Assembly (NCBI GenBank): GCA_009746045.1
Contig: RPFO01000154.1
Location: 4,875,137 to 4,939,136, forward strand
Length of the DNA stretch: 64,000 nucleotides
DNA from: Mesostigma viride
Lineage: Eukaryota; Streptophyta; Mesostigmatophyceae; Mesostigmatales; Mesostigmataceae
Direction: 5' to 3'
This document shows, piece by piece, positions 39,921-58,978 of this stretch. The notes under the pieces are model-generated. The model searched no databases, was not told the DNA's origin, and saw nothing but the letters and a program-made list of their open reading frames with translations. Within the stretch, counting starts at the first letter, position 1; each line of letters opens with the position of its first letter. The translations under genes were made by a program, and so were the position numbers.

Positions 39921-40481
39921 ATGGAGTCAAGTCTGCCGCGCTTGCGCAATATGCCGGAAAGCGGCAGCGGCACCGCAAGTGGTCCCCCCTGCGAACCCGC
40001 CCTTCCCCTGGCCGATGTCACCGCGGGGGATGTGCGGGGGGCATCACCGACCCCCAAGCCGCCACCTGTCATCGCACCGCCCGCTGGCCCCGCCATCAAG
40101 GTCCCCCTGCCCAAGGGGGTGCTGTCGGGCATGGCCTACGCCCACATCGCGCACGAGATGCGCAAGGGGCGCGAGGCTGCGGCGCCACGTGGTGGCGGCA
40201 AGTCAGGCGCGCTGCCCTCCATCCCCCGCCGCCGCTGGCAGGGCGCCTACCACTGGGATGTGGCGGGGTTGCGGGCCCTCAGGGAGGAGGCGTCCGCTTC
40301 CCTCCCCCCGCTCACCAGCACGCGATGCTTCCGCGACTCGACATCCCCGCCAGAGACGCCCTCGGATGCGTGCCGGCTGGAGCCTGTGCTGCTGGAGGAT
40401 GAGGAGGAGAGGGGCAGGGTAGGGGCGGCCGTGCTGGAGCAGGTGGGTGACCGCTTAGGCTACAAGGGGGTTGGCGTTTGA
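39921..40481 (+). CDS. hypothetical protein, 186 aa
   Basis: An intact GC-rich plus-strand frame, ATG at 39921 to TGA at 40479-40481. The N-terminal third is proline- and glycine-rich (GSGTASGPPCEPALPLADVTAGDVRG). The middle has VPLPKGVLSGMAYAHIAHEMRKGREAAA and a basic-aromatic RRRWQGAYHWDVAGLRALREEA. The end is acidic (LEDEEERGRVGAAVLEQVGDRLGYKGVGV). Its third-position GC preference matches the neighbouring synthetase gene, which starts about 260 bases downstream on the same strand. No family recognised, no signal peptide or membrane segment. Confidence 0.5.
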   Translation: MESSLPRLRNMPESGSGTASGPPCEPALPLADVTAGDVRGASPTPKPPPVIAPPAGPAIKVPLPKGVLSGMAYAHIAHEMRKGREAAAPRGGGKSGALPSIPRRRWQGAYHWDVAGLRALREEASASLPPLTSTRCFRDSTSPPETPSDACRLEPVLLEDEEERGRVGAAVLEQVGDRLGYKGVGV

Positions 40482-40744
40482 TAATATTGAGTGGGAGGAG
40501 GGGCCTGGTGCGCTGCGGGTAGTGCTTATATGGCACACATAGGGCACATTTCTAGCACATATTCAACACAGAAAAAAGCGCATGTATAGCACGTACAGGC
40601 GCACAGCATTTGGGTGTGTGGCACGTCGCGAGCTATGAGGTGGCCTGGTCTGCGCTTGCTTGCCCCACGCTCACCCTGCAGGTGCCTCTTTTCCTACTCC
40701 CGCCACCCTGCTTCGCCACCATCGTGTACCATCGTGTTGCCACC

Positions 40745-41160
40745 ATGGTTGTTACGTCGCAGCCGTGCGGCGCCTACCGGACGGTGGTCGTGGGTGAGCA
40801 AGAGCTCACGCTGCAGTGCCTCAAGCTGATGCTGCCGCACGTACCGTCCCAGCTGGAGGTGGCCGCCGTCATCTCGTCCAACCCGAAAATAGCAGCCGAG
40901 TGCCGGTCCTCCCTGCCCGGCACCCCGCTGTACCCCAACGTGAAGGCGTTCATGGCGTCGCACCCTGCCCCCTTTGACGTGCTGTGGAGTGTGTACAACC
41001 CTTACTACGTGCCCAGGGAGATGCTGTCCCTGGCCAGGGTGGGCGCGTACAACTGCCACAACGCACCGCTGCCTGCGTACGCGGGCGCGCACGCTGCCAC
41101 GTGGGCCGTCTTCAACGAGGAGGCATCGCACGGGTGCACCTTCCACGAGATGACCGAGAA
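40745..41160 (+). CDS. synthetase exon 1: formyltransferase N-terminal half
   Basis: ATG in strong Kozak context (GCCACCATGG). Encodes [20 protein letters not shown], a beta-alpha start like formyl_trans_N. Then come [49 protein letters not shown] and [15 protein letters not shown]. The N-x-H pair within NCHNAPLP corresponds to the catalytic Asn and His of 10-formyltetrahydrofolate-dependent transferases. It ends at a GTGGGT donor with two bases of a split codon. Confidence 0.85.
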
Positions 41161-44100
41161 GTGGGTGTGGGGGGCGGGGGGATGGGGGGGGTTGAACGTG
41201 GGGGTTGAGAGTGGGGGGATGAAGGGGGGGGGAGGGGGGGGGATGGATCTGGGTGGCAAATGCGGGTGGATAGGCGTCAGGGGACAAAAGCGTTTTGGCC
41301 GGGAAGATGAAGGGGGGTGCGCTCATACCACGTCCATGCACGAAGATTTCATCTCACTACAACCCGGCATAAAACAAGGAGTGGGTGTTTGCCTGCCGCC
41401 TCGCCCTACCTGCGTGCACGTCGTGGGATGGGGCGGTGGGCAGCAAGGAAGGGGAAGAAACCAAGGGTGGGTGCACGGGGGGGGCGTGGGAAGGGAACCT
41501 GGGCAGTCGGTTGAACCATCCGTGAGGCATGGCCCCTGCAAGGGTAGCACGGTCTGGGGGATCGCAGCCGGCCCATCGTGGAAAAGCCATGTGGATGGGT
41601 GTGGTCACTCTATGTGGACGGACCTGTGGTAGCACACACGTCCGAGGCGATGCGTTGGAACATGCGCAGGGAGGGGAGCATCTGCGGAGTAGGCGCGCGT
41701 CCCACTCATCGCTTGTCGCGTCCTGTGGCCATGGCCTTTGAGCATGGCTGTCCCTGTCCACACCCCTAATGTCTTTTTCCATTGTCATTTTTGTCATGTT
41801 TCTCGCCTGTATGATTGTCATAATAGCAGATTATCATGTTGTTGTCACCAGCGTAGATGCTGACATTTCTAGTACCTCCTCCCCCTCCCTGCCCCTATCT
41901 CCTCCCTCTCTTTCCGTTTAGTAATTCCCTCTTCCCTTCGCTGCTGCTGTCTCTCCCGTCGCTTGCATCCGCCCATGCCAACCCCCTGGTCCATGGCTCA
42001 CCCTTGCGGTCTCCATCCCATCACCCCCCCCTGCGCCCTTCCTAAACCCACCCTCTTGCCTCCTGTTGGCCATCCCCCCACCCCCCCCCCACCCCCCTCC
42101 CCATGCAGTTACGATGACGGCCGCATCGTCGCGCAGCGCACCTTCCCGCTGGATGACAGGGACACGGCGCTGTCATGCGAGCTCAAGGCGCACGACGCGG
42201 GGCTAGCCATGTTCCAGGAGCTGCTGGACAAGATGCTGGGGGGGGAGGGGCAGGGGGGCTTGGCGGGCCAGGGCGCGGGAGGGCATGAGGGGGAAGGCAA
42301 GGAGGGGGTGGAGGGCAAGGGCGCGGGCGGCCACCGCGTGCTGGCGGGCGTGGAGCAAGACCTGGCCAAGCGCACCTACCATGAGTACTGGCAGCGGCTG
42401 CCGCGCGGCGCGGTGGTCAACTGGGCGGAGCCGGCCCACAAGATATGTGCGCTCGTGCGTGCGCTGGACTACGGGCGTGCCGTCAACCGGCTGGGGGTGG
42501 CCAGGGTACGCGATGAGGGTGCCTGTTGACAGCATCTCTGGCGGGGGAGCCGTGGGGGCCGTGGGGGCAACCAGTTTGTCTGCCCGTTGCTATTGCCGTG
42601 TTGCTGTTACTGCCTGCCTGTGCTGCCACCTTGTCTGGTTACCTCTTAGTTTTTCTAGTTTCTTTGGTTGCCTGCAGAGGGCGCCCCACGCATCAGTTTT
42701 TCCTCAGGGGCCTGCAAGGATTTTACGGTCGATACCCCAACACCCTGCTCACCCTCGAGTCTGGGAACAGTTGGGGGTGGGCCTGTTTTCCATTCATGTG
42801 GAGACGGCGAAACGGCGCACTGACAAGCTGCCCACCTTTCTGGCCCCCTGTTGCGCCTGTGTTCCATGTGCCCACCCTGCAGGTGGCGCTGGCCCCGCAT
42901 GCCCTCTACGCGCTGCTCTCCGCATCCGTTGCTGATGTCAGCGCGGGGCCATCCGAGACGTCAGGCAGCAACCAGTGGACCGCCGCCGGTGCCATGCCAC
43001 ACGGTTCCCACCGCGTTGCTGGCAGTCACGTCACACAGCCCCCCTTGGCCGTAACAGTGGCGACATCCTCCGCGGTCCCTGGCACCATCCTGCGGGTGCG
43101 CGCGGAGGGCGGTGTAGAGGTGATGGCGGGCGACGGCATGTCGCTGGTGCTGCAGCGCGTGCGGGCGCTCAGCTGCTACGCAGCTGAGGTGCCAGCAGCC
43201 ACCGCGGTGGCCGAGTGCGGGCTGAGGGAAGGGGACGTGCTGCCTTCCTTTGCCTGCGACGGCTACGTGGAGGCGTTGCTGCGCGCGGCCAGGGACGAGG
43301 CCTGGTGGGTCAAGAGGCTGGCGCCGGTCACCGAGGCGGTCTGCTGGTACATTGGGCAACCTGTGGAGCAGGACGCGCCGCTGTCGCCGCCATCAGACCC
43401 AGAGGGGTCCTCCGGACGCCACAGCAGGGACAGCTTCTCACCACAGCTGAGCCGGCGGCGCACCACCGTGAGGCGGCTGCTGCGGCAGCACACGGCGCCC
43501 GCGGACAGGCAGGCGGTTGCTGAGCACGCCGAGACGCCCAGTTCCGCCCCGGCCCTGCGAGGGGAAAGAGATGCCGCAGGTGATGCCGCGGGTTTCGACG
43601 GGGCCAGCGCGCGCAACCTGCGACATGGGGGCGGCCTGGGGGGGTCGTTCCGGGCGATTGCGGACGTGGCGGCCGCCAGCGATGCCGGGTCACCGCAACG
43701 GGGCGACCAGGCAAGTCCATCAGCGGCGTCTGACAAGGGGAGTAGCACGGGGCACCACCCGCACGTGATCTTCTGTTGCCCGGTAACCGTGCCAGGTGTC
43801 GACATCAAGTTGTTCGATGGGCGCCCCGCCAACAGTGTGGAGGCGCTTGTGGCGGCATTTGCCACGGTGGTGTTCCGTACGGGCGGCCATGACTGCCTGC
43901 CACGCTTTACGCTGCGCCTAATGGACCGCCGCGTGGCCACGTGGGGGGGGCTGTTCAGCAGCAGCACGCCCCTGGCTGTGGTGTTGCCCTGCCTGCCGGA
44001 TGCCAGCAATAAAGACACGGACGCGAGCAGCCGTGGCGGCAGCATGCATGGTGGTGGTGACGGCGGCGGGGAGGGCAGCCCTGCCGACCTGGACGCCCCC

Positions 44101-47100
44101 TTCACGGCGGTCATGGACTCGTTGCATGCTGAGCTGGCAGCCATCCACAAGCACGGGGGAAGCTTCCCGACCGACATGCTGCTGCGGTACCCTGGCATTG
44201 AGGGGTTTGCGCACCTGACGGTGGGGGTGGAGGTGGTCCTAGTTGACAACAGCGGCGTTGGGGGGGGGGTGACGAGCGGCAGGACCAAGGGGGCGCGGCG
44301 CCGTCCGCCAGCGGGGAGGCCTCACTGGGCCAGGTGCGCGAGGGCGACTCAGGGCAGGTGACCGACTGGGACGTGCTCAACGCGTCGGTGGTGCTCGTTC
44401 TGCACGTAGTGGAGGAGGACGGTGGGGGGGGCTCCCCCTTCACGCGCGTGGAGAGTGCCTGCCTGACCATGTCGGGCCACCGCATGGTCGTCGAGGACAT
44501 GGTGCGGCTGGTCGATGTCTTCCAGGCCGTGCTGGCGGATGTGCTGGCCAGTCGCGGCCGCAAGTCCCCCTGGCTGCTGTCGCTGCTGGGCAAGGGGGAG
44601 CGTGCGAAAATGCTCACCCACTGGGCGCAGAGCGACCTGCAGCAGCCGCACGCGCTGCTGGCAGGGAACAACCACGCGGTAGAGCTTCTGGCGTCGCTAC
44701 CCCGCGAGCCCGCCACGCGCATTACCGACGGCAGCAGGAACGCGGGCGGGGGCGCGGGCATCAACAACAGCAGCTCTAACGCGGGCGCGGTTGCGGGCAT
44801 GAACAACAGCAGCCGTAACTCGGGTGAGGGCGATGGCCTGTCGCCCAGCGCGTCGTCACCGGAATCCAGGGATGCCGAGGCGGCGCTGGCAATAGCGGCG
44901 GCGGCGGCACTGTCACCTAGCGCCAGCTTGGGCACGCACCCCCCCACGCACCTGATCCACGAGGTGATCACGGCATGGGGCGCCCGCACGCCGCACGCAC
45001 GCGCGCTGCTGGACCACGAGGGCGCCTGGCTGACACATGGCGAGCTGAGGGCCCGGGCGCACGCGCTGGCACAGGTGCTGCGGCGACGGGGGCGCGGCGG
45101 CGCCGAGGGCGGCACGGCATCCACCGCCCCCTTCAGCCTGGGCCCCAACGTCCCTGTAGCGCTGGCCATGCACTCCTGCGCCGACTACGTGGTGGCCATG
45201 TTCGCGGTGCTGGCTGCTGGCGCCGCGTTTGTGCCGCTGGACCCGAGCAACCCGATGGACCGCGTGCGCTACATCATCGAGCTATGCGGTGCGCCGCTGG
45301 TGTTGTCCTTGCGACGGCACGAGGCGCTGCTGCGCACCCTAGGTCTCACGTGGGATGGGCCGGGGGGGGGGCGCGAGGAGGGGGGCGGGGGGGGGGCAGC
45401 AGAGGCAGCGCAACAAATGGCTCGCAGCCGCCCCCGGCGGATGCCGATCACGCGGCGCCGCCTGGCCAGGGACCGATGGTGATCTTTATCGACGACATCC
45501 GGCACCTGTGGGAGGTGCGGGTGGGCCCAAATGGCGACACATACCCCCACGACACTCCCGCTCGCGCCGCCACCACCACCACAACCGCCCCTGATGAGGG
45601 GCACAAGCCACCCTTGGACGCGTCGTCGGCCCACTCCCCGCCCTGTTCCCCTCCCCCACCGACATCTGTCACAGCCACAGCGATGCCAGACGAGTCGTTG
45701 CCCCCCCCCTGCGGCCGCGGCCGGATGACCTGGCGTACATCCTGTACACGTCCGGCTCCACGGGGCGGCCCAAGGGGGTGCAGGTGACCCACCGGGGGTT
45801 GGTGCCCCACTTTCTGGACGTGGCGCTTCGGCTTCGCATCACGTCTGCCGACCTTGGCCTGCAGGTGGGTGGCGCCCGGTCTGTCCATGGATGCTCTGTA
45901 CCGAAGTGTTCTCACACGTTGAGCCGTAGGCGGTTGGAAACCCCGATGGGGTGCTGGATGTGCACCTCCACGTCGGGCGTGCGTGGCTGCTGCTGCTTGC
46001 GCAGGGCTGGCAAGGTAAAGACACTGCGCTTGCACGCTTGGTGTAGGCGAGTGCGGGGAAGGCGTCCAGGTGGCGGCCATTCGCGCTGCCGTGTGGCCCA
46101 TGCCTGCGTACGTGCAAGGGTGGTCACATGCCTTTAGCAGCCGGGGGGCGACCCAGCCGTTGGCTACTTTGTGGGGTGTCTGCGGGGCCCCGCTCACTCC
46201 TTGTGCTGGTGGCCGCGTCGCCGCCTCCTGTGGCGGCCGCGTCGCGATGCCCGGGCCCGCTGCGTGCGTGTCGCATCCTGCGCTCGCGCTTGTGGGCACC
46301 GCGCTGGCGAACAGGATATTGCTGGCGTTTGATGGAGGAGGCGCGTGGAGGCGGCGGCATGTCTCCATGACGATGGCCGTGAGCTTGTTGGATGCATGAC
46401 GCGAGTGTGCAGGCTGTGGCTGGCCCCAGCGGACAGGCTGCGTGCCCTGTGCTGTGCGCCCTGTCGCTCTGTGCACGCCCCCACCGATGCTGACTTGTGC
46501 ATATTGAATGTGTGCGGCTGCGGCCACGACCCCCTCTCACCTGCCCCCCCTCCGCCCCCCCCCCGGCAGGCACTCACACACACGTTTGACGGCTCACTGC
46601 TCGAGCTGCTGCTGCCCCTATTCTGCGGCGGCGCCGTCTACCTGGCGCCGCCAAAGTCGCTGTCGGATCCGCAGCTGCTGGCCTACAAGATCGGGTCGCT
46701 GGGCGTCACCTACATGCTGATGGTGCCCAGCGTGCTCACGCTGCTGCTCAACGTGATGGGCCAGCTGCCGCCCTGCCTGCGCAACGTGTTGGTGGGCGGG
46801 GAGGCACTCACCACCGCGCTCATCGACCGGTGCGTCTGTCTGTCATTCTTGCGGCTCACGGTCATACTCACACACCTACGTTTATTCATGTGTCACTGGT
46901 GGCGTACGTGCCGTCGCCGCACCCATGCCTTTGTGCAAGTAGCCTCACCCATGCCCTGCGTGATGTTTTGTGCACTGCCATCCGGTGGCATGGCAAATGC
47001 ATCGTGGCTGGAGGCTGCAGGCGGGAGAGGGTGATGGGTGGCCATGAGGGTGTCGGTGGGGGCTAGGGTGGTGTGGGAGGCTCGTGCTCAGTGTTGAGCA

Positions 47101-50100
47101 TGAAGGATTTATTCCTTGGGAATATTATCACTGCTATCTCGGTCTAGGGAGAATAATCGCGTACAGACACCCGCCCGTAATGGGTGTTGCTATAGGAATA
47201 AACCCAAGGAGGGCGCGTGCTGGAGCGTGCTTGTGTAGCCAATCGTGGTTATTAGGCAGAGAAGTTGCAAGAAAGATGTGGCCCAGTGCCCAAGGCCCTC
47301 CTGGGAGCCTCGATGAAACTTCGGATGGAGCCTGTAAAGGTGGGCAACAGCTTGGTTGGACTGGACTGAGCTGGGCTGCGGTGGCGTAGCGGTGGCGTGC
47401 AGTGCCATGCGGTTGCCCACGGTAGGGTGTGAATGCCTGGGAACCAGCTTGCGCGCTGTGGCTGGCTCGCTCCAGTGACGTACACGTGCAGGTCCCAGTG
47501 GGTATGCTGGCCCTTGCCACCAAATCTATATCCCATCTATACCCTATAGATACCCTATCTATGCCCTATATATACCCTATTGATGCCCTATCTAAACCCT
47601 AGATATTACCTATCTGTATGCTATCTATGCCCTGTTGCTTATCTGTAAGCTATCTAACGCGTGGCACCGCCGTGGCCGCCCTGCGTGCTCCCTCGGCCCC
47701 TGCCCTTTGGGTCCTGCCCCCGGCCCCTGCCGCTGGTGGCCGCAGGTTTGTGGAGCACAGCGGCCCCCACGTGCACCTGCACAACTTCTATGGGCCCACG
47801 GTGCGTGTGCGGCGCGGCCCACCGCTGCCCTCGCTCGCTCGTTTGCCCGTTATGTGTGTTTTGAGGTGCGCATCAAGGGCCTGCATGTTCGCTCGTCGGT
47901 GTGCACGGCCTGAAAAAATAGCCTTGCTTTTTTCTTTTCTTTTGATATGGGAGGACAGGATGCGCCCGTCAGGCCGTACAGAGCAGATTCGTGTACCCCT
48001 GGCGGACATCTTGCTTGCGGTGGCCAGATATACAGCACCCATTGGTGCGTATGACAAGCAATAATGCTAGCCAGGGCCGGGCGTGCACTTCGGATGTGCT
48101 GGAGGCTGGCATGCCCATGGGCGTGTGCAACTATTGTTGCGGGTGTTGCGGGCCTCGGCGCCCAACTCCCTGATGCTGCGGTGCCTAACCTTTTGTCTTT
48201 TGTGCAGTTGTTGCCAGGCCTATTGCCTGGCCCAGGATGCTGAAATACAAATCTTTCAATGCTAGTATTGCTATAACATCAGTAGGTGTGGCCTCCATTA
48301 GCACCACCCATACCACTAATCCTACTAGTATTGATACAACTGTACAACAACACGGCTGCGGTGTGCCGGTGGTTTCTGGCTGCGGCGCGCCATCCTGTCA
48401 TGCACCCTCTCAACGACGGCGCCCGGGAAGAGAGTAACGCCCATGCTGGCACGCGTAACCCTGGTCCCCGCCGCCTGCCCGCTTCGCATTGTGTGCTGTA
48501 ACCCACCCCCGCTGATGCATGCTTTGTACCCAGCCCCTGCACGCAGGCTTGGCACGGCACCACCGCAACCACTGCGGCCATCATCTTATCTCCACCGCCA
48601 CCACCATCTGTTGTGTGTGTACGTGTGTGTGCGTCTCCTTGTGGTCAGGAGACGACCATCTTCTCCACCGCCGCGTACGACGTGGACGCCTTTGTCTGCA
48701 AAGGGGCCACCGCGGACATCGGGCAACCCGTACTGGGCGACACGGTCTACGTGGTCGACCGCAACCTGCAGCTGCTGCCCGTGGGCGTGCCGGGGGAGCT
48801 GCTCATCGGCGGCGTGGGCGTGGCCAGGGGTTATCACCTGGCGCCAGGGACCGGCCGGTCCCAGTCGGCGCGCTTCATCCCCGACCCGTTCTGGGCGGAG
48901 GTATGCGCGCCGCCGCCGCCCTCCACCTCGCACATTGCAGCGTCCACCATGCCTGCCAGCTGGCGCAGGCAGGGCCGTGACTCCAGCGGTGCAGACATGC
49001 TGTTCTCGCCACTGTCCTCGGTGCACGGGCCTGTGCTGTCGCCGGGGCTGTCCCTGTTCGGGTGTTTCCGCGGCGACGGGCGCTGCTTCCGTAGTGGTGA
49101 CTTGGTAGCGTGGAACAGCAACGCCACCATCCAGTACGTGGGCCGCATCGACACAATGGTCAAAGTGCGGGGCTACCGCATCGAGCTGGGGGAGATCGAG
49201 CAGGTGCTGCTCAAGGTGAGGACACTGTAGCACTTTAGTGACCGTTGTTGGGGTCCATGGAATCGGCCAGTAGGCAGAGGGCTGTGCGTGCCAAGGTGAC
49301 TTGCTTGGGGCTCTTCATGCAGCGGTGGTTCATGCACCGCCACCGCTCCATGCATGTGCCTGTGTCGGGAGAGCGTTGGCCACTGCTCCCACGTTGGTCC
49401 GCTGCTGCCATCCCGCCCTGAGCATCTCCCTTGTTCTGCTTTGTGAGTGGTGGGCCATTCCATGTGTGTTGCCCCTCACCCACCCCTGTTTAGCCCGTGC
49501 CTTATGCATGTGCCCTTTCTCACCCCCCCCCCCCCTATGTCGCTGCCTGTTGATCAAATAACCCCACCCATGTCGCTGCCTGCTGACCACCCCCCCCCTT
49601 TGTCGCTGCCAATTGCTCAAACCCACCCACCCATGTCGCTGCCAGTTGCTCAACCCCCCCCCCCCATGTCGCTGCATGCTGATCAACCCCCCCCCCTCAT
49701 GTCGCTGTTTGTTTATCAAACCCCCCTCCCCCCATGTCGCTGCCTATTGATCACCCACCCACCCATGTCGCTGCATGCTGATCAACACCCCCCCCTCATG
49801 TCGCTGTTTGTTTATCAAACCCCCCTCCCCCCATGTCGCTGCCTATTGATCACCCATCCACCCATGTCGCTGCATGCTGATCAACACCCCCCCCCTCATG
49901 GCGCTGTTTGTTTATCAAACCCACCCCCCCACGTCGCTGCCTATTGATCACCCATCCACCCATGTCGCTGCATGCTGATCAACACCCCCCCCTCATGTCG
50001 CTGTTTGTTTATCAAACCCCCCTCCCCCCATGTCGCTGCCTATTGATCACCCATCCACCCATGTCGCTGCATGCTGATCAACACCCCCCCCTCATGTCGC

Positions 50101-53100
50101 TGTTTGTTTATCAAACCCACCCCCCACGTCGCTGCCTATTGATCACCCATCCACCCATGTCGCTGCATGCTGATCAACACCCCTCCCCTCATGTCGCTGT
50201 TTGTTTATCAAACCCCCCTCCCCCCATGTCGCTGCCTATTGATCACCCACCCACCCATGTCGCTGCATGCTGATCAACACCCCCCCCTCATGTCGCTGTT
50301 TGTTTATCAAACCCCCCTCCCCCCATGTCGCTGCCTATTGATCACCCATCCACCCATGTCGCTGCATGCTGATCAACACCCCCCCCTCATGTCGCTGTTT
50401 GTTTATCAAACCCACCCCCCCACGTCGCTGCCTATTGATCACCCACCCACCCATGTCGCTGCATGCTGATCAACACCCCCCCCTCATGTCGCTGTTTGTT
50501 TATCAAACCCCCCTCCCCCCATGTCGCTGCCTATTGATCACCCATCCACCCATGTCGCTGCATGCTGATCAACACCCCCCCCTCATGGCGCTGTTTGTTT
50601 ATCAAACCCACCCCCCACGTCGCTGCCTATTGATCACCCACCCACCCATGTCGCTGCATGCTGATCAACACCCCCCCCTCATGTCGCTGTTTGTTTATCA
50701 AACCCCCTCCCCCCATGTCGCTGCCTATTGATCACCCATCCACCAATGTCGTTGTGTGCTGATCAACCCCCCTTTATGGCACTGCCTGGGCCTGTGCACG
50801 CGTGCAGGTGCCCGGCGTGCACGCGGCGGTGGTCGCAGTCCACGAGGAGAAGAACGGCACAAAGCACCTCGTGGCCTTCGTGGCGCCAGACGCAGGCATC
50901 CATCCGCGCAAGCTGCAGTCCACCTGCGCGTCCCACCTGCCCTACTACATGGTCCCTGGCTACTACACCGCCATGGCGGAGCTTCCCGTGACGGCCGCTG
51001 GCAAGGCCGACCGTTCCTACCTGGGAAATCTGCCGCTGCCCATCGGCCAGCGGGGCTCGGGCAAGGAGGCCACGGCGCGCGCAAAGGCAGCGGGGAGTAA
51101 ATTGGAGGGGGGCGCGCCAGCCAGCAAATTAGAGCTCAAGGTGGGTGGCTATCATTTGTTAGCGTAGTCGTGTTTGTTATGAGCTGCTGTGTACTAGGCT
51201 TGCTGCGCAGGTATGCGCTGCGCCTCCCTGGATGCCAGTGGCCAGGGACACCCTGCGTGTATACTGTAGGCCACCGCCCTGTAGCTTGGCCAAGGGCTCG
51301 TGCGTGCCCCGGTGCGCGGACCAGGCAGGTCACCGCCTCCTCCCGGCCACATCCCACCCACAACCGTTCCCCCACCCCCACCCGTTCCACCCCACCCCAC
51401 AGATCATACGCGCGATGAAGGTGGTGCTTCAGGTACCCGAGGGCACGGACGTGTCGCCTGAGGACTCCTTCTTTGAGCTGGGCGCCGACTCGCTGATGGT
51501 GGCACGGCTGGTGGCGGAGATGCGGGACATTGCGCGCGGCAGCATCAGCGTGGTGGACGTTTTTCGCAACCCGAGCGCGCGCCAGCTGGCAGAGGCCGCG
51601 CTGCGCAACAGCGGCGGCAAATTTATGACGACCAAGCAGGTGGGCATGTGCATAACCACCGCCCATGGGAGCACATGGGCGGGTGGCGGTTCATTTCAGG
51701 GCCTGTTGCCGCTGGGCAATAGGAGCCTGGTGGTGTTGTGGTCAAGGGGCACGGGTGAAATGTCCGTCCCGCGAGGCAGTCCGGCATGGCTTTGAGGGGG
51801 GTATCAATTCTCCAAGTGTGGGTACGGAACAGCTGTATAACTCGGTCATGGTGGCCGTTCCTTTCCCCCCCCCATCGCTCCCGGCTCCCAACGGAACGGC
51901 GTGCGGATGATGTGTGCAGCACTCTCGTTGTGCGACCACCCCCCAAGCCTCCCCCTGTCCCCGTCACACCCTGCTTGGGGTGGTATGCGGCGCCACCACC
52001 CACCTTGCCGTGGCTAGCAGGCCAGCGCGCCCACCGTGGGTTGCGCACGCGCACATGATCACATCATGCAGTTGCCTCCGGTTGCATGGGCAGTGGCATG
52101 TGGGCCTTGTCTGGTTGCAGGGCCAGGGCACACCCGGCCACTGACCGATGCACATGCCTCTTTGCTATTGATTGCGCGTGCCATTTTGCTGGTGGCGTAT
52201 GCTTCGCCTTGCTGAGGGATATGCTCTTTCCGCATAGACTTTTCCACACATACACACACACTCACCCCCTGCCCTTGACTCCCCCCCCCCCTGCGTGCCA
52301 CCCCCCAGCTGAGCAAGACGCTCTCGCAGCGATTCCCTAGCCCCAACGCCAGCCTGCGGACCCCGAAGTGGCTGATCGAGGGGGGCTTTCGCCCCGTGTT
52401 GCTCACCCACACGGTCACGCGCCACGGCCACGGGGCCATTGGCGTGTTTGGCCGGCTGGCCCGCGCATGGCACAGAAAGGGCAGGGAGGGCAGGGATGTC
52501 GGCAAAGGGGGGGGGGGACAGACGGGGGGGGGGCGGCTGGCCGCATGTGGACGGGGAGCAAGGGTTTGGGCCGCTACAAATTGAGCGTGGCTTAGGGGGC
52601 GATCCCGCGCATGCATCGCAGTCGGGCGACCACCCAAGGGGGGAGGACTCCAGGTCCTCGCATACGTCAGGGGGGAGGACTCCAGGTCCTCGCATACGTC
52701 CATTCCCCCGCCGCCCCTCGGCCGCTCCTCGCGCCCCACGTGGTGCTCCTGCAGTTGCTGTCACTCTTCCTCAAGGCCTACGTGCTTTTGGGCAGCGCGG
52801 GGCTGGGGGCGGCCATCGTGGTCTACGCACAGGACCGGTGGGGGGACGGCGCAGCGCTGCTGGCGCTCCCCGTGGCATTGCCCGCGTTCGGCGTCGCCCA
52901 CACCGCCCTGGTGGTGGCGCTCAAGTGGCTGATACTCGGGCGCCAGCGTCCGGGCATCATGAGCCTGTGGTCCCTGGAGCACCTGCGCTGGCTGGCCGTG
53001 CGCTCCTTGGCCCAGTCCCTGGGCGACTACGTCCTCTTCTGCGTGGCGGGCACACCGCTCATGGCCCTCTACCTGCGGGCGATGGGCGCGCGCGTGGGGC

Positions 53101-56100
53101 GTGCCGCGCGCGTGGACGCGGTCGCCCTGCTGGACTGGGACCTGCTGGACATCGGCGCGGGGGCGTACGTCGGGCGCCGCGCGACGCTGGTCGGTTTCGA
53201 GCACGTGCCGGCGGGGCTGCTGTTCCAGCGGGTGCGTGTGCCCCCCTGGGGCGTGCTGCTGCCATCCGAGCACGCAGGCCCCTACAGCGGCCGCTTCAAG
53301 GGGGGGGGGACACGGCCGCGGCATCCGAGCGCGCCAGCACAAGAGAAAAGGAGGAGGTTGCGCGGTCACCCCTGGGGCGGTTCCACAACAAGACGCGCGA
53401 CAACGCCATGTTTGCGGCCGGGGAGGACAAGGGCAAGGCGCTCTCCTCACTCTCCGCGCTCACTGAGGTGGTCGTGGGGGGGGCAGCGAGGGAGGGAACA
53501 AGGACGGCCGGCCAGGGGGGGCGGAACGGCTCGGGGTGAGCGGTCGTCTGCGGCGCTGCTGGCGCGGGGGCGGGGAGCAGAACGCGGCGCGTCGCTCGAT
53601 GGCCAAGAGCCACCCCTTCTACAACGAGTTCTACAACCGAGGGGAGAGCTACAGCCTGGAGCCCGGAGCAGGGGGGGCGGGGGAAGGATTGACCGAGGGC
53701 CAGCAGGGGGGAACAAGGGGGGCTCCTACTCGGGCGCAGCTCCGCCACCATTGCGTGACGGCGGCGGTGACAAGAGGGAGGACGGCTCGTCAGCCATCAA
53801 CCGCTTGCTGCGCCTGCCAATGGTACCCTGGTGGTGCTGGGTCCCTTGCATTGCCGCCCAGGTACTGGCCCATTCTGCTGCGCTCGCCCCCGCCGTGTAC
53901 CTGCTCATCCTACTGCTGCACGCGGACGCGCTGCCCCACCTGGCGCTCGCCGCGGTGCTGCCCTGGCTGTTCATGATGGTTGGGGGGGCGCCTACGCGCT
54001 GGTGCTGCTGGCGGTCAAGCTCGTGCTGCTGGGCTGGCGGCCGCCCCCCTGGCCCCGCCTGACCCCCTGGCGCGCGGGCCGCCACTGGCACGTCTCTTGT
54101 TGTGTCGAGTCCCCCCTCTACCAGCTGTTTCTGCGGCTTTGGGATGGTGCCTGGACGCTCAACGCCTACTACACCCTCATGGGCGCGCATGTGGGGAGGC
54201 GCGTCTTCCTGCCGTCGCCGGACGTGGTGGACTTCCACCTCCTGCACGTGGGTGATGACGTCACCTTTGGGGGTCTGGTCACGCTGATCACCACGGGGCT
54301 GGCACTCCCAGGGAGCGGCGACGGCACCCTGGAGGGTGAGCGGGGCTCAGCGCAGGCGCGGGTCACGCTAGAGGCTGGGTGTTCGTGCTTCGACAGCGCG
54401 ATCCTGGCCCCCGGCACGCACGTGAGGCGCCGCGCGGCAGTGGGCTCCTACACCTTCTTACGCACGCACTCGCGTGTGGCGGAGGACTCGGTGTGGCAGG
54501 GGTGGCCGCCGATGCTGCTGGTGAGTGCGGTCGCTAGTTTGTGCGTGCGTGCGCTAGCGTGGCTGTATGCGCGCATTCCGTCCTGTCGGCGGCACCGGTC
54601 AGGGTGGGCACGAGGCAGCACGTCTCCGTAGGGCGTTTGTGGAGAGGTTTGTGGTGGGGGGCGCACCATGGCATGGCATGGCCTTGTTTTGTTGTCATTA
54701 CTTGTTGTCATGTTTTGGCATCGGGTGCAAGTGTACGGTGTTCCCCTGGCGTGCTTGCGCAGCGTTGATAGCCACGCTATGTGTATGTGCGTGGGATCAT
54801 GTTGGTGTGGTGCGAGGAAGCTGCTTCATTCATTCCTGCGGTGTTGGGTTGCAGTTGTGCCTTGTTTGGCCTACTGCACTGGGAACGTGGTCCAGCAGTG
54901 GTTTGGCAGAGCCGACACATGCTCACGCGGATGCCCACACCCTCCGACATATGTGTGCTCCCTTTTTGGTTTCCTGGTCGACATAGTCACTGACGCTGCC
55001 TATCTTCCTTGCTCCCCCCCTCCCCTTGGACCTGCAACCACAACCCTGCTGCTGCCGACATTGCGCTCGCCCCTGCCCACTGGGCGCCCTCGCCCCCCTG
55101 CGCCTTGTCCCCCCTGGCAGCTGCAACGGTCGGCGCAGGTTGCCAAGGCCCAGCTGCAGCGGCACGCCAGCATAAATGCGGCACAGGGGCACGGGCTGCA
55201 GCGACAGCCCACATATGAGACAGCCGCGCTGACAGGAGGCGGGGTGGACGCGGGGAAGGGCGGGGGCGCAAGAGGAGATGTGACAGATGGCAGGGGCAGG
55301 GGCAGCGCCAGGGCGTCGGCGTCCACGTCCGCACATTCCTTCATAGAGCTGGTAGCGGACGTGGCGCGGGGCACGGCGACGGGCCAGGAGCGCGCGCAGG
55401 CGCCCAACATGCACCGCCTGCGGGTCAGCGACGACGGCGTGCTGCCAGGCACCCTGGGCCTGGGCGGCGGCATGCACGAGCTGCAGGCCGCCGGCATGTC
55501 GGACCATCGCTACATCTGGGGTCAGCTGGGCAACGTGCTGCTCCGCTTCTTTGCCGCGCCCACCACGCTGGCGGTAATGTACGTCGTCTCCTACGCCATC
55601 AACCAGCGGGTGCAACGTGCCTTTGACGACAGCGTCGTCGGCAGCGCCGTATCCCTGGCGGTCTACCCAGCCTGCTACGTGGTTGGCATGTTTGCGATGG
55701 TTGTCTATCTGGTGCTGTCCAAGTGGCTCGTCATGGGCCGCTACAGGGAGGGGCTGTACCCCTTCTGGAGCACCCGCTTTAACCTGTGGCAGCTGCAGGT
55801 GGTCTTCATGAAGATCGTGGACATGTATGTGCTGGCCGACCTGCGCTCAAGCTATCTGCTGACCCTCGTCTACCGGCTCATGGGCGCCACCATCGGAGCC
55901 GACGTGCTGCTGGACGCGCACCCCCGCGTCGAGATGGACCTGCTGACGATGGAGGACGGCGCGGTGCTGGGCTACCGCGCGTTCCAGTACGGCCACGTCA
56001 TAGACAACATGTGCCTCCAGTTTGGGCGCACGCGCGTGGCGGCGCGCGCCATCGTGGGCGCGCGCTCCATGGTCCTGATCGGCTCCACGCTGGAGGCCGA

Positions 56101-56206
56101 CGCGATGCTCCTGGGCTACTCGCTCGCGCTCAAGGGGGAGCTCTTCGCGCCCAACACGGTGTGGGAGGGGCTGCCCGCCGTGCGCGTGTCACGAGGCTCG
56201 GGGTGA
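40745..56206 (+). CDS. formyltransferase-NRPS-Pls-like synthetase, eleven exons
   Basis: Spliced gene read as exons 40745-41160, 42109-42505, 42883-45864, 46570-46829, 47746-47800, 48649-49215, 50808-51140, 51403-51639, 52309-~52500, ~52755-54520 and 55121-56206. Most junctions are GT-AG and keep the frame. Domain order: formyltransferase, condensation-like linker, adenylation (A), carrier (T), then three repeats of two membrane helices plus a beta-helix-like module. A-T followed by six TM helices interleaved with three modules is the known layout of bacterial epsilon-poly-L-lysine synthetase. The added formyltransferase resembles N-terminal domains of some bacterial synthetases. It probably activates an amino acid as an adenylate and thioester and couples or releases it at a membrane. 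The product is unknown. Frame changes at G/C runs (44260, 45362-45396, 45701, 53300 and later) look like length errors. The exon 9-10 link is unresolved. A full-length reading is about 2,750 residues. Confidence 0.8.
42109..42505 (+). CDS. synthetase exon 2: formyltransferase C-terminal half
   Basis: The acceptor ATGCAG is followed by [23 protein letters not shown]. The Asp before Gly-Arg-Ile takes the place of the third catalytic residue. Then come [20 protein letters not shown], a Gly-rich insert, and [18 protein letters not shown] with [17 protein letters not shown], typical of the link to the C-terminal subdomain. Ends phase 0 at AGG|GTACGC. Confidence 0.8.
42883..45864 (+). CDS. synthetase exon 3: linker, condensation-like part and A domain start
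   Basis: Begins [12 protein letters not shown] and reads [20 protein letters not shown], the small C-terminal domain of formyltransferases. A condensation-like region follows ([11 protein letters not shown] ... [20 protein letters not shown] ... [20 protein letters not shown]) without a visible HHxxxDG motif. The A domain starts at about 44955 ([37 protein letters not shown]) and reaches core motif A3, [15 protein letters not shown], at 45735-45779. Three frame changes coincide with G10 at 44260-44269, G runs at 45362-45396 and C9 at 45701-45709. Ends at CAG|GTGGGT. Confidence 0.75.
46570..46829 (+). CDS. synthetase exon 4: A domain core (A4 region)
   Basis: Acceptor CCGGCAG. Encodes [20 protein letters not shown], which holds the conserved Asp that anchors the alpha-amino group, then [15 protein letters not shown] and [12 protein letters not shown]. 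It ends with two bases of an Arg codon completed by exon 5. Confidence 0.85.
47746..47800 (+). CDS. synthetase exon 5: 55-base microexon with NFYGPT
   Basis: Acceptor GCCGCAG|G and donor ACG|GTGCGT. The product [18 protein letters not shown] carries the first half of A5 (NxYGPTE). The Glu comes from exon 6. Phase and motif continuity on both sides support the call despite the small size. Confidence 0.8.
48649..49215 (+). CDS. synthetase exon 6: A5-A9 motifs
   Basis: Starts [13 protein letters not shown], then [34 protein letters not shown] (A6), RFIPDPFW, an insert of about 45 residues, [10 protein letters not shown] (A7) and [20 protein letters not shown] (A8). Ends phase 0 at AAG|GTGAGG. 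The insert before A7 is longer than usual. Confidence 0.85.
49537..50780. repeat. higher-order minisatellite inside synthetase intron 6
   Basis: About 37 subunits of 31-36 bases, each starting ATGTCGCTG and containing a GATCA-like core followed by a C-rich stretch. From about 49730 three subunit types alternate in fixed order: CTATTGATCACCCAxCCACCC, CATGCTGATCAACACCCCCC and TTTGTTTATCAAACCC. This gives a ~99-base higher-order unit repeated about ten times. Homogeneity within each type implies that the trimer, not the monomer, was amplified. Confidence 0.9.
50808..51140 (+). CDS. synthetase exon 7: A domain C-terminal subdomain
   Basis: Acceptor CGTGCAG. Encodes [47 protein letters not shown] and AGKADR, which is A10 with the catalytic Lys that contacts the adenylate. 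A basic linker leads to the carrier domain. Donor AAG|GTGGGT, phase 0. Confidence 0.85.
51403..51639 (+). CDS. synthetase exon 8: carrier (T/PCP) domain
   Basis: A single exon encodes the whole carrier fold: [58 protein letters not shown]. The Ser of LGADSL is the site for the 4'-phosphopantetheine arm. Acceptor CCCCACAG and donor CAG|GTGGGC are in phase 0. Confidence 0.9.
52309..52500 (+). CDS. synthetase exon 9: post-carrier linker (3' end uncertain)
   Basis: Acceptor CCCCCCAG, then [40 protein letters not shown] and a basic stretch. No clear donor was found. G10 runs at 52507-52530 and a 33-base tandem duplication at about 52646-52700 follow. The end is a guess, and the frame linking it to exon 10 is unresolved. 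Confidence 0.45.
52755..54520 (+). CDS. synthetase exon 10: Pls-like modules 1 and 2
   Basis: Possible acceptor CTCCTGCAG, although the same frame is open further upstream. TM1 [22 protein letters not shown]2 [20 protein letters not shown], the motif [16 protein letters not shown], then module 1 ([35 protein letters not shown]). After frame changes at G runs (53300-53309, 53476-53521, 53671-53735) come TM3 and TM4 ([36 protein letters not shown]), a further shift at 53982-53988, then [15 protein letters not shown]. Module 2 reads [31 protein letters not shown] and [17 protein letters not shown]. Donor CTG|GTGAGT, phase 0. Confidence 0.7.
55121..56206 (+). CDS. synthetase exon 11: Pls-like module 3 and stop
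   Basis: Acceptor CCTGGCAG. A disordered start ([20 protein letters not shown]) leads to TM5 ([20 protein letters not shown]) and TM6 ([20 protein letters not shown]). [20 protein letters not shown] follows, then the third beta-helix-like module ([60 protein letters not shown]) and [14 protein letters not shown] before TGA. This exon is free of frame changes. Confidence 0.85.
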   Translation: MQRSAQVAKAQLQRHASINAAQGHGLQRQPTYETAALTGGGVDAGKGGGARGDVTDGRGRGSARASASTSAHSFIELVADVARGTATGQERAQAPNMHRLRVSDDGVLPGTLGLGGGMHELQAAGMSDHRYIWGQLGNVLLRFFAAPTTLAVMYVVSYAINQRVQRAFDDSVVGSAVSLAVYPACYVVGMFAMVVYLVLSKWLVMGRYREGLYPFWSTRFNLWQLQVVFMKIVDMYVLADLRSSYLLTLVYRLMGATIGADVLLDAHPRVEMDLLTMEDGAVLGYRAFQYGHVIDNMCLQFGRTRVAARAIVGARSMVLIGSTLEADAMLLGYSLALKGELFAPNTVWEGLPAVRVSRGSG

Positions 56207-57772
56207 GCATGTATGTGCAGGGCAGCAGCGCCCGGTGGCATGCGGGAATCCTGCGGGCACATGCCACCAACTAGTTGTCGAGGAGGCAGGGGTACGGGGA
56301 GGTCCCAACGCAACACTGCGGCTTGATCCACCGTTTTCGGCGATACTTGTTTTATCGGCAATGTGATCGCAGACGGCAATGTTACTCTTCTGCTGTTTGT
56401 TGTGACCCCGCGGCCTGTGCTGTTTGGGCCAGCTGGCAATGGGCGTACCTTGGCGTCCCACCGAACAGGAGTGCAGGTGTTTTCCTTTTGTTCACCAGCT
56501 GCCGGGGGGGGTTCGGCGCTCTGGCCATGTATTCCATACTCCGGCCAACCAACTGCGGTAGAGCTAGCCATTTTGTGCTCTTGCCAACCCATTGGATTGC
56601 TGTTTAGGTCTGCAAGCCCTGTCATGTTGTTGCACATTGTTTGCATCTGCACTGCTGTGTTTTTTGCATTGCCTGGGTTGGGGGGCGATGGCAACCACGG
56701 CGTGTTTATAGTATTGGTTTCTTGGGGGGTAGATCCTGAACCTCCTCATGATTTGAGACTCATGATTGTAGCTGACATATTTACCTTACGGTGGGTGTGA
56801 ATAGAATCGAGGCAGGCAGCAAATATTAAACCAAATGCTGGTGTGGGAGTTCTTGTACTGTACTTTTATATAATGTACAATATATATTTAAAAAATATAA
56901 TGTACAATATATACATTGTGGTAACTCTTTTTAGTGTTGGCTTTGTTTATTAAGTGAGACAACTATGTTTGATTGGGTGCTTTCCCTCTGATGTAAGTTA
57001 TTATAATTTTTAATGCATATTTTTTGTCGTGGTATCTCTTGTTAGCGCTGGCTTTGTTTATGTTTGATCGGGTGCTTTCCCTCTGATGTAAGTTATTATA
57101 ATTTTTAATATATATTCATTGAGAATGATAAATTACGGAGGTGAGATTGGCATGCAAGATAAGGAAACCCCCCCAAAGAAGAAGAACCCTAAAGAAAATA
57201 ATGGTAATCTGACACGGGCATGCAAGGATCACGCCAGCTGCACAAGGTACAACTAACTACATCACAAAACTACGACACACAGCAACATCGCAGTTGTGCT
57301 CCCGAGTGGCATCTATCCGCCGGCCGGTAGTCGCCGGCCCGGACGCCTAGTTAGGTGGGCATCAAAGATTGGTGTCTAGATGCTAGTCGGTGCCCGTAAG
57401 CAAGGTACGGAAGCCAGTGCGCGCCGGGACGGTCAGAGAACCGTCGCCCTCGGTAGCACAGATCCGCTGAGTGCCGGTAGTCTCGGGTTAGAGGCTCGAG
57501 CATGCACTATCGGGTAGCCTACCGGTAGTCTCGGGTTAGAGGCTCGAGCATGCCTTATCGGTTAGCGCCGCGCCGCTAGCTGAGCTCCTTGCGGCCTGGC
57601 CAGCTGTAAGGGTTCAATAGCAATCAGTGGCGGCTGCGGGCTCAGCCTCCCACAATCGGTTCCCCAAACAACAAAAATCCCGTCTCCATCGCCGGCGTGC
57701 TAGCCAGCGGTGAAGGGCATTCAACTTGTATTCACAACAGTCAACATTTCCGTTGACCATTTTTCTGGGCTC
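56207..57772. other. no gene; short tandem duplications
   Basis: Probable 3' UTR of the synthetase, then AT-rich sequence. About 108 bases are duplicated (56915-57015 and 57025-57112: GTGxTGGCTTTGTTTAT ... GGGTGCTTTCCCTCTGATG). A 38-base unit, GGTAGTCTCGGGTTAGAGG..., is repeated at 57475 and 57524. The latter lies just upstream of the copia gag and may be LTR or leader. Confidence 0.5.
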
Positions 57773-58978
57773 ATGGCGCGTGGCGCGGAGCGAACGCCAG
57801 CTGCAACCCAGGACCAGGGAACGCAAGCTTCAACTCCGGCGGATGGGAGTGGCGCAGCCACGGTGGCGACTGGGCCAGCTGGTGGCTCGGCCAGCACAGC
57901 TCCGGGGCAGCAGTCAGCACCAACTGCCCGGAAAGTTTTCAAGAAAGAAGAGCTGCCAAGTAAGCTGCCAGAAATTCTGACGCCGTCCGCCGTGGAGGAG
58001 TTTATTAACAGCCTGGGCGAGCTCCGGCAGGACTACAACGAACTGTCCGACGCAGTTTTCCTCACCAAGCTGCGCCGGTCAGAGGTATGCAACGAGGCTA
58101 CGGGTAATGCGGACGTGCGAGGGGTCATTATCAACGCCAGCAAAGAGGCGTGGACCTGGCCCGACACAGTGAAGGCCCTGCAAGAGGTGCTCGACACCTC
58201 AAGCTTTCCTGACGAGGAAAAGGAGGGGCAGGCGCTGGTGCGCAACCTGTCGCTTGACCCCAATTACCTCAGCTCGGACATGGCCAGATTCGCGGCCCAG
58301 GTCCGGAGCAAGGGTGTCTTGAAGCACATGAGTAGCGAATATTTACTCAGCGCAGTTCTGGATGCGCTGGGGCTGACGCCAGAGAGCCGTGCCAATGTCA
58401 AGGCCGGTCTCGGCATGAAAATTGCGCTAGCTTCTTCCGTGGTAGTGGGCACCCCGGACGACCAGAAACGGTTCAACGCAGCCATGGCGCACCTCCGAGA
58501 GATGTTCAAGGACCGGGGCGGCCCCAGGCGTAACAACAAGCTGCCGACAGTTGCTCAGGTAAACCCTGTGCCTGCCTCGACCCCGCCAGCAGCTTCTCTG
58601 TCGGACTTGACCACTCTTGTTACCCAGCTGTCCACGACGGTGGCCGACAACGTGGTGCGAATGTTGGGTGGCAAACGCCGAGCTCGCGGTGGTCGGCACA
58701 ACCAGAACGCGTCCAGCAAACGCGGGCCGGGAGGCGGTCAGGGCAAGCAGCCTCGACAGGAGGGCGGCGCTGGCAGGCAGCAACAGCAGCAGGGTGGCGT
58801 CCCCAAGGAGAAGGTCGTCTGCGAGCGGTGCACCGGCGTGGGGCACACCGAGGCCAACTGCACGCTGGGGCTGGACCTCGGCAAGGTGACTCGAGTGTGC
58901 CGGCGCTGCTGGGCGGTTCGGCTTCCTGGACACGACCCCAACACATGCCGCGCCCCACGGCCAGCCATGCCCAAGTGA
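57773..58978 (+). CDS. Ty1/copia gag with zinc knuckle, intact ORF
   Basis: 402-codon frame from ATG 57773 to TGA 58976-58978. Ala/Thr/Gly-rich N-terminus, then a helical capsid-like region (LPEILTPSAVEEFINSLGEL, TWPDTVKALQEVLDTSSF, YLLSAVLDALGLTPESRANV, AHLREMFKDRGG). A Gly/Arg/Gln-rich basic stretch precedes the knuckle CERCTGVGHTEANC (C-x2-C-x4-H-x4-C) and a second Cys/His cluster (CRRCWAVRLPGHDPNTC). The two-cluster end resembles a nucleocapsid. It differs from the gag at 19843-21166 in the capsid and in having the second cluster. Pol is present only as the remnant at 59289. Confidence 0.75.
   Translation: MARGAERTPAATQDQGTQASTPADGSGAATVATGPAGGSASTAPGQQSAPTARKVFKKEELPSKLPEILTPSAVEEFINSLGELRQDYNELSDAVFLTKLRRSEVCNEATGNADVRGVIINASKEAWTWPDTVKALQEVLDTSSFPDEEKEGQALVRNLSLDPNYLSSDMARFAAQVRSKGVLKHMSSEYLLSAVLDALGLTPESRANVKAGLGMKIALASSVVVGTPDDQKRFNAAMAHLREMFKDRGGPRRNNKLPTVAQVNPVPASTPPAASLSDLTTLVTQLSTTVADNVVRMLGGKRRARGGRHNQNASSKRGPGGGQGKQPRQEGGAGRQQQQQGGVPKEKVVCERCTGVGHTEANCTLGLDLGKVTRVCRRCWAVRLPGHDPNTCRAPRPAMPK

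Follow-up and report, generated by a model that had tools for sequence, protein, structure and literature searches.

In polylysine-like synthetases the Pls-type domain is known as the half that polymerises, and the locus described here raises the question of what such a domain does in an alga, at the end of an enzyme that opens with a formyltransferase. The locus lies in a 64,000-nucleotide stretch of the Mesostigma viride genome, which we call the window (GenBank assembly GCA_009746045.1, contig RPFO01000154.1; positions 4875137–4939136 of this contig, here C1690, of 9.1 Mb, in a genome of 440 Mb and 2243 contigs). An earlier note, made from the letters of the window, had read here a native algal gene joining a formyltransferase, an A-T pair and a membrane half like that of bacterial enzymes that make isopeptide homopolymers or release amino-acid amides. 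We found that the predicted protein carries, in order, a formyltransferase, a condensation-like linker, an A domain, a carrier and three membrane modules of the Pls/PosA type. We propose that it may be a formyl-aminoacyl synthetase whose Pls-type domain serves as a membrane release acyltransferase and not as a polymerase, a reading to which we give an even chance of being right. At the sequence level the domains, their order, the introns, the copies and paralogues of the gene and the other Pls-type fusions of this genome are plain, and the same membrane half standing on other assembly lines suggests a general device for product release.

Architecture and predicted substrate of the putative synthetase

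The formyltransferase, the A domain and the LGADSL-bearing carrier named in the earlier note all passed their Pfam cut-offs (Formyl_trans_N 4e-13, AMP-binding 3.4e-69, AMP-binding_C 3.2e-10, PP-binding 1.5e-10). Formyl_trans_C stayed below its own (0.15), and an insertion is present in that region. Residues N103, H105 and D141, which we take to be the catalytic residues of the formyltransferase family, are invariant in all five aligned sequences (the window and four bacterial relatives), and a search of solved structures matched this part of the protein to sugar formyltransferases and to the formyltransferase of LgrA. The linker that follows gave weak matches in a phmmer search against 87 bacterial open reading frames (best E 5.8e-4 for the window and 1.5e-4 for a paralogue on contig C1507), and HHxxxD is absent from the window reading. 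Between formyltransferase and A domain, positions 194–451 of the 456-position Condensation model are found in a Legionella lytica relative, and Pfam found no Condensation there in a Ruegeria relative.

Behind the carrier, the NCBIfam model TIGR02353 matched a piece of 207 amino acids (aa) at 1.2e-18 (66.9 bits) and one of 538 aa at 8.5e-34 (116.9 bits), so that the lack of Pls similarity which, by the earlier note, would have refuted its reading did not occur. Kyte-Doolittle peaks at three sites after the carrier, enough for about six helices, bear out the six membrane helices it had proposed; the scan peaks inside the A domain too, and the three helix pairs also fit an alignment with eight bacterial Pls members. 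Its KxLxxGR..W pattern, one per module, appears cleanly just in modules 1 and 3; module 2 reads VKLVLLGW. The three beta-helix-like modules it had seen are predicted, by homology, to be left-handed beta-helices, since Hexapep in the window membrane half fell under its cut-off (0.11); other algal Pls ends are over or near that cut-off. The 538-aa piece had no meaningful match among solved structures (best E 0.16), and the sections of PMC10522769 considered here describe structural information on the Pls-type domain as lacking. One His of the last Pls module is the same in all 13 sequences aligned, of which five are algal and eight bacterial.

The A domain points away from the substrates of polylysine-like enzymes. 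Its pocket, located by motif anchors, reads DGLLLGFIFK, and the acidic residue for a diamino acid is not present. The Pls proteins of Aureimonas, Rhodococcus and Sphingomonas have a Glu at the third pocket position in their A4 contexts, which were read by eye, the Sphingomonas and Legionella codes being mis-anchored and that of Aureimonas having one blank position; anchoring gave no code for Skermanella and two Mycetohabitans stretches. A Glu is likewise described for PosA in the consulted portion of PMC10522769, where the acidic residue binds the side-chain amine. When the A domain was compared by profile search and the 86 entries were ranked, bacterial formyltransferase-type synthetases took ranks 1–4, the alga's own C-A-T modules rank 5, and seven Pls-linked A domains ranks 54 to 80; the top four proteins exceed 2000 aa, and multi-module proteins gain from summed scores. 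The protein looks chimeric, with an A domain of the formyltransferase-synthetase kind on a Pls-type end.

We propose that the A domain would charge the carrier's phosphopantetheine arm with a neutral amino acid, probably an aliphatic or aromatic one, whose alpha-amine the formyltransferase would then cap, in the manner of formyltransferase-initiated peptide synthetases. From there the six-helix Pls-type domain would take the N-formyl-aminoacyl thioester off the carrier and hand the acyl group to an acceptor at the membrane, either an amine or a hydroxyl, releasing an amide or an ester. One continuous protein, the substrate class and the release chemistry are what we infer here from sequence. 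A basic homopolymer is an unlikely product because the pocket is predicted to be hydrophobic and without Glu, and because formylation would cap the alpha-amine: with that amine formylated and the side chain neutral, no second amine would be left for an isopeptide chain. The isopeptide-homopolymer option of the earlier note is thus not supported. Its caution that the product is not predictable holds for the acceptor, but for the acyl part an N-formylated hydrophobic residue is to be expected.

Pls-type ends on other assembly lines

The genome-wide TIGR02353 search returned 30 matches, those of 1e-10 or better lying on contigs C1524, C1468, C1690, C2179, C557, C1579 and C1602. On C557 a single frame of 1602 aa holds a KR domain (3e-10), a carrier (PP-binding 4.3e-11) and a Pls domain (TIGR02353 2.8e-51, in three stretches), and KS, AT, DH, ER-like and KR domains lie within 10 kb upstream on the same strand (L046; L045:5002–9807, minus strand); its Pls domain is the predicted end of a reducing polyketide synthase. 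On C1524 (L039, L040) a single frame of 927 aa runs from a carrier into a Pls domain (1.6e-40), with a further module match downstream and acyl-CoA-ligase-like AMP-binding frames upstream on the same strand. AMP-binding (5.1e-23), carrier (2.9e-6) and Pls (8.1e-37) matches stand in a row on C1468 (L048:2963–4033, L041:3658–10000), where the AMP-ligase motifs are presumably those of fatty-acyl-AMP ligases. A Pls end on C1602 (9.9e-35) resembles that of C1468, and two partial ones lie on C1579. The fusions of C557 and C1524 are seen within single frames, and elsewhere they are read from order and strand with exons not joined. A carrier before the Pls domain is the feature common to the window gene and the proteins of C557, C1524 and C1468.

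A Pls end shared by such unlike assembly lines is a more interesting fact than the window gene alone. With slightly less than even confidence, we suggest that in this alga the Pls-type domain may be an interchangeable membrane release module, passing very unlike acyl groups from peptide (formyl-A-T), polyketide (KS-AT-DH-ER-KR-ACP) and fatty-acyl (AMP-ligase-carrier) lines to a common acceptor, of which basic polymerisation in bacteria would be one special use. If true, this would set the activity of the Pls domain, the transfer of acyl groups off a carrier at the membrane, apart from the function that gave it its name, and would offer a new release chemistry to look for. The genome also adds one rich in peptide-synthetase matches to the algae, where such enzymes are reported to be rare (7 of 32 species; PMC4661987, whose consulted sections do not mention a Pls-type end). 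Condensation matches number 77, a good part of them on the bacterial-looking contigs C2011 and C870; others lie on C887, C1846, C1602, C1622, C2, C131, C224, C1801 and further contigs, an unusual number for an alga. Phosphopantetheinyl-transferase had one match on C1106, which also carries weak light-harvesting matches, and two on the low-GC C2011.

The bacterial sequences sampled gave no source for the whole fusion. A single-protein scan of genome contigs found no relatives for 12 stretches, and an alignment scan found at least 585 bacterial formyltransferase relatives, the best 80 of which were kept. A Pls-type domain was found in none of these 80 loci (tblastn, 1e-3), though some loci, as small as 3.3 kb, may stop short of the end of their gene; as a control on Pls plasmid loci, the Pls parts of the window and of C1524 each found five of five and that of C557 four of five. 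TIGR02353 at 1e-30 was found in 59 of 1171 bacterial genomes from three phyla (26/398, 25/396 and 8/377), with a longest frame of 1565 aa when at most two candidates per genome were scored and frames were cut at contig ends; this survey is a sample, with cyanobacteria, fungi and other eukaryotes outside it. The predicted bacterial Pls frames, at 1565 aa or less, are too short for the fusions described here. In the Actinomycetota sample, Pls-type domains lie in open frames of 824–946 aa, too short for an A domain too, and a Pls-type protein of a Streptomyces plasmid has 846 aa. Viral contigs yielded no relatives for seven stretches. Among the matches listed from the open-licence PMC literature, there was no formyltransferase-A-T-Pls enzyme, no Pls-ended polyketide synthase and no green-algal Pls; homologues in bacteria, archaea, cyanobacteria, fungi, Metazoa, Alveolata and Amoebozoa are named in PMC10522769, and a green alga is not named in the sections considered.

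Gene model, frame breaks and rival explanations

Ten of the eleven exons of the earlier note, running from an ATG at 40745 to the stop at 56206, are consistent with GT-AG rules and phase. The eleventh is likely real and would lie upstream, at 39921–40442, probably moving the start to 39921: it has an ATG and a GT donor, with an AG acceptor and an in-phase join at 40682, and four further loci conserve all or part of its translation (96.6% over 174 aa in a copy on C2179; 80% over 100 aa and, twice, 57.9% over 57 aa in three paralogues). A Pfam search found no match for these 174 aa. Read exon by exon, the protein has 2823 positions, including spacers and X at frame changes, with no internal stop in frames that were chosen to avoid stops. 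The features are collected in the table.

Features of the predicted synthetase gene (positions within the window)
Feature	Position	Strand	Remarks
Probable first exon, 174 aa	39921–40442	+	In-phase splice to 40682; conservation at four further loci
Exon 1, formyltransferase N-terminal part	40745–41160	+	N103 (41051–41053), H105 (41057–41059)
Exon 2, formyltransferase	42109–42505	+	D141 (42113–42115)
Exon 3, formyltransferase C-terminal part, linker, condensation-like region, first half of A domain	42883–45864	+	
Three frame changes of exon 3	44260–44269, 45362–45396, 45701–45709		As placed
Condensation-like linker	43756–44627	+	Limits approximate; without HHxxxD; weak evidence
Exon 4, A domain	46570–46829	+	A4 region
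Exon 5, A domain	47746–47800	+	A5 (NFYGPT)
Exon 6, A domain	48649–49215	+	A6–A8 with insertion
Exon 7, AMP-binding_C	50808–51140	+	A10 lysine
Exon 8, carrier (T) domain	51403–51639	+	Ser codon 51490–51492 in GADSL
Exon 9, linker and Pls modules 1 and 2	52309–54520	+	Six frame changes
Exon 10, Pls module 3 and stop	55121–56206	+	Invariant His codon 55994–55996

The intron between exons 6 and 7 is mostly filled by a 99-bp tandem repeat array (12.7 copies, 49522–50772). Downstream of the gene, 57704–58978 holds an open frame of 424 aa with CxxCxxxxHxxxxC near its end, as in retroelement gag, and no Pfam family over cut-off.

The setting of the gene supports its being native, as the earlier note had held. 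The 33 light-harvesting-family matches in the genome identify the host as a photosynthetic eukaryote, and the gene is nuclear and spliced, with copies and paralogues of its exons on C1690, C2179, C1507 and C623. A bacterial contaminant was rejected for the window gene on its introns, a window GC of 0.575, the light-harvesting genes in the genome, and a copy and other Pls ends on contigs of 2.4–10 Mb. Two contaminant-like contigs, C2011 and C870 (GC 0.40 and 0.35, one locus each), were kept apart; they carry peptide synthetases (loci L001–L008) and are likely from a bacterial companion.

Two copies are near-identical to the window gene: the first lies 39 kb further on (C1690:4969380), without an exon 1 match nearby, and the second on the 48-kb contig C2179. 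The formyltransferase-A part also has paralogues, 57–85% identical by segment, on C1507 (L029/L030) and C623 (L031/L032); contigs C2179, C1507 and C623 measure 48–201 kb. Behind both paralogues, on the same strand, come C-A-T modules that repeat and resemble one another; neither paralogue has matching exons 6–8, the link between the halves being broken in the available sequence. A partial copy at 3.72 Mb of C1690, interrupted by internal stops, loses its similarity in exon 6.

Neither exon 3 nor exon 9 can be read in a single open frame, a feature absent from the earlier note. The window reading changes frame nine times, three times in exon 3 and six in exon 9, eight of the changes being placed at runs of 6–11 G or C and one at a perfect 32-bp tandem duplication with G6 runs inside exon 9 (52637–52700); in non-conserved sequence their positions were our choice. 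These breaks weigh against a working release enzyme and would be real if the gene were a young decaying duplicate, giving no full-length protein while working relatives lie elsewhere in the genome. On the same side, break sites s1, s6, s7 and s11 are identical in both near-identical copies, one stop codon still interrupts the incoming frame of these copies around s4–s5, exon 3 of the copies has further single-base length differences (43110, 44302, 44327, 45448), several away from long runs, and the partial copy at 3.72 Mb has the stops and the early end given above. Against decay, both copies stay in frame at s2 and s10, as do C2179 at s3 and the C1507 paralogue at s1; C623, which has local breaks and stops of its own, is open across the stretch that contains s2 and s3. 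With one extra base at 52733, around s4–s5, the copies then carry the incoming frame of exon 9 on into module 1, open but for that one stop codon. Between copies, exon 3 shows 64–67 substitutions and exon 9 none, with two single-base length differences, a pattern of consensus error. Rough ratios of nonsynonymous to synonymous change (dN/dS) were 0.38 for C1507 and 0.41 for C623, in the formyltransferase-A part only and including exon 6 codons aligned to unrelated modules; they were 0.63 for the partial copy and 0.53 and 0.48 for the near-identical ones. The absence of an in-frame stop also speaks against decay, though the frames were chosen for that. We judge most of the breaks to be probable consensus errors, and regard decay as unlikely while still a serious contender.

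Further points count against the release-enzyme reading. Both TIGR02353 scores of the window fall under the curated cut-off of 423 bits, as does every match in the genome-wide search; introns and divergence both lower this score. The step from pocket code to substrate is weak for eukaryotic A domains, and acyl transfer by the Pls-type domain would follow from family membership and a single invariant His. In a tree of the last Pls module the algal copies do not group, the five algal rows needing four changes, so that one and several origins of the algal Pls ends are not distinguishable. Continuity of exon 8 with exon 9 is likewise read from the sequence. A split into two genes, one for a soluble formyltransferase-A-T protein and the other for a Pls-type membrane protein that meets it in trans, would agree with the Actinomycetota frames, which hold all or most of the Pls domain and are too short for A-T-Pls; we consider this improbable, as the junction of exons 8 and 9 obeys GT-AG and keeps the phase, and carrier and Pls share one open frame at C557 and C1524. 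A cationic or isopeptide homopolymer synthetase like Pls/PosA, with formylated chain ends, would fit the A-T-Pls order and the TIGR02353 similarity, and a fungal Pls is described in the sections of PMC7179176 considered here. The pocket, a formyltransferase and A domain of the initiation type, and the same terminal domain behind polyketide and fatty-acyl-type carriers make this very improbable. Slightly harder still to credit is an initiation module of a longer line, handing a formylated residue to C-A-T modules of other genes with the Pls part a mere anchor: the C1507 and C623 paralogues do precede such modules and condensation-domain matches are many, but the last Pls module of the window keeps its invariant His, and with the halves unlinked at C1507 and C623 no intact line is seen. 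We regard the earlier observation as partly confirmed and its interpretation as partly supported; on the synthesis itself, the reading should change from a homopolymer synthetase to a putative formyl-aminoacyl release enzyme.

Relation to known systems

The window gene resembles Pls/PosA (TIGR02353; bacteria and some fungi) in having an A-T pair followed by a sequence-similar, six-helix, three-module membrane domain with the invariant His in its last module. It differs in its additional formyltransferase and condensation-like part, in its predicted hydrophobic pocket without Glu and in an A domain that is not of the Pls-linked kind. It is also far longer, at about 2800 aa against 1353, 1360, 1335 and 1368 aa for four A-T-Pls plasmid proteins, and at most 1565 aa for the frames of the sampled genomes that match TIGR02353, with or without A-T. 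The Epls of Epichloe is likewise a eukaryotic Pls-type enzyme; unlike the window gene, it is described in the available part of PMC7179176 as a plain A-T-Pls protein with a lysine pocket, 51% identical to Streptomyces Pls.

With formyltransferase-initiated synthetases (linear gramicidin LgrA and the bacterial proteins L009, L010 and L011) it shares the order formyltransferase, A, T and the catalytic residues, and with L009 also the C-terminal half of a condensation domain between formyltransferase and A. Those enzymes end otherwise: L009 in a thioesterase, L011 in a carrier after an inserted monooxygenase, and L010, judged by eye, continues into further modules. What follows the window carrier, unlike in formyltransferase-initiated nonribosomal peptide synthetases, is a Pls-type domain and not a condensation module. 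As a large assembly-line enzyme in an algal nuclear genome, the predicted synthetase is comparable to the algal type I polyketide synthases and nonribosomal peptide synthetases described in the consulted sections of Shelest 2015 (PMC4661987).

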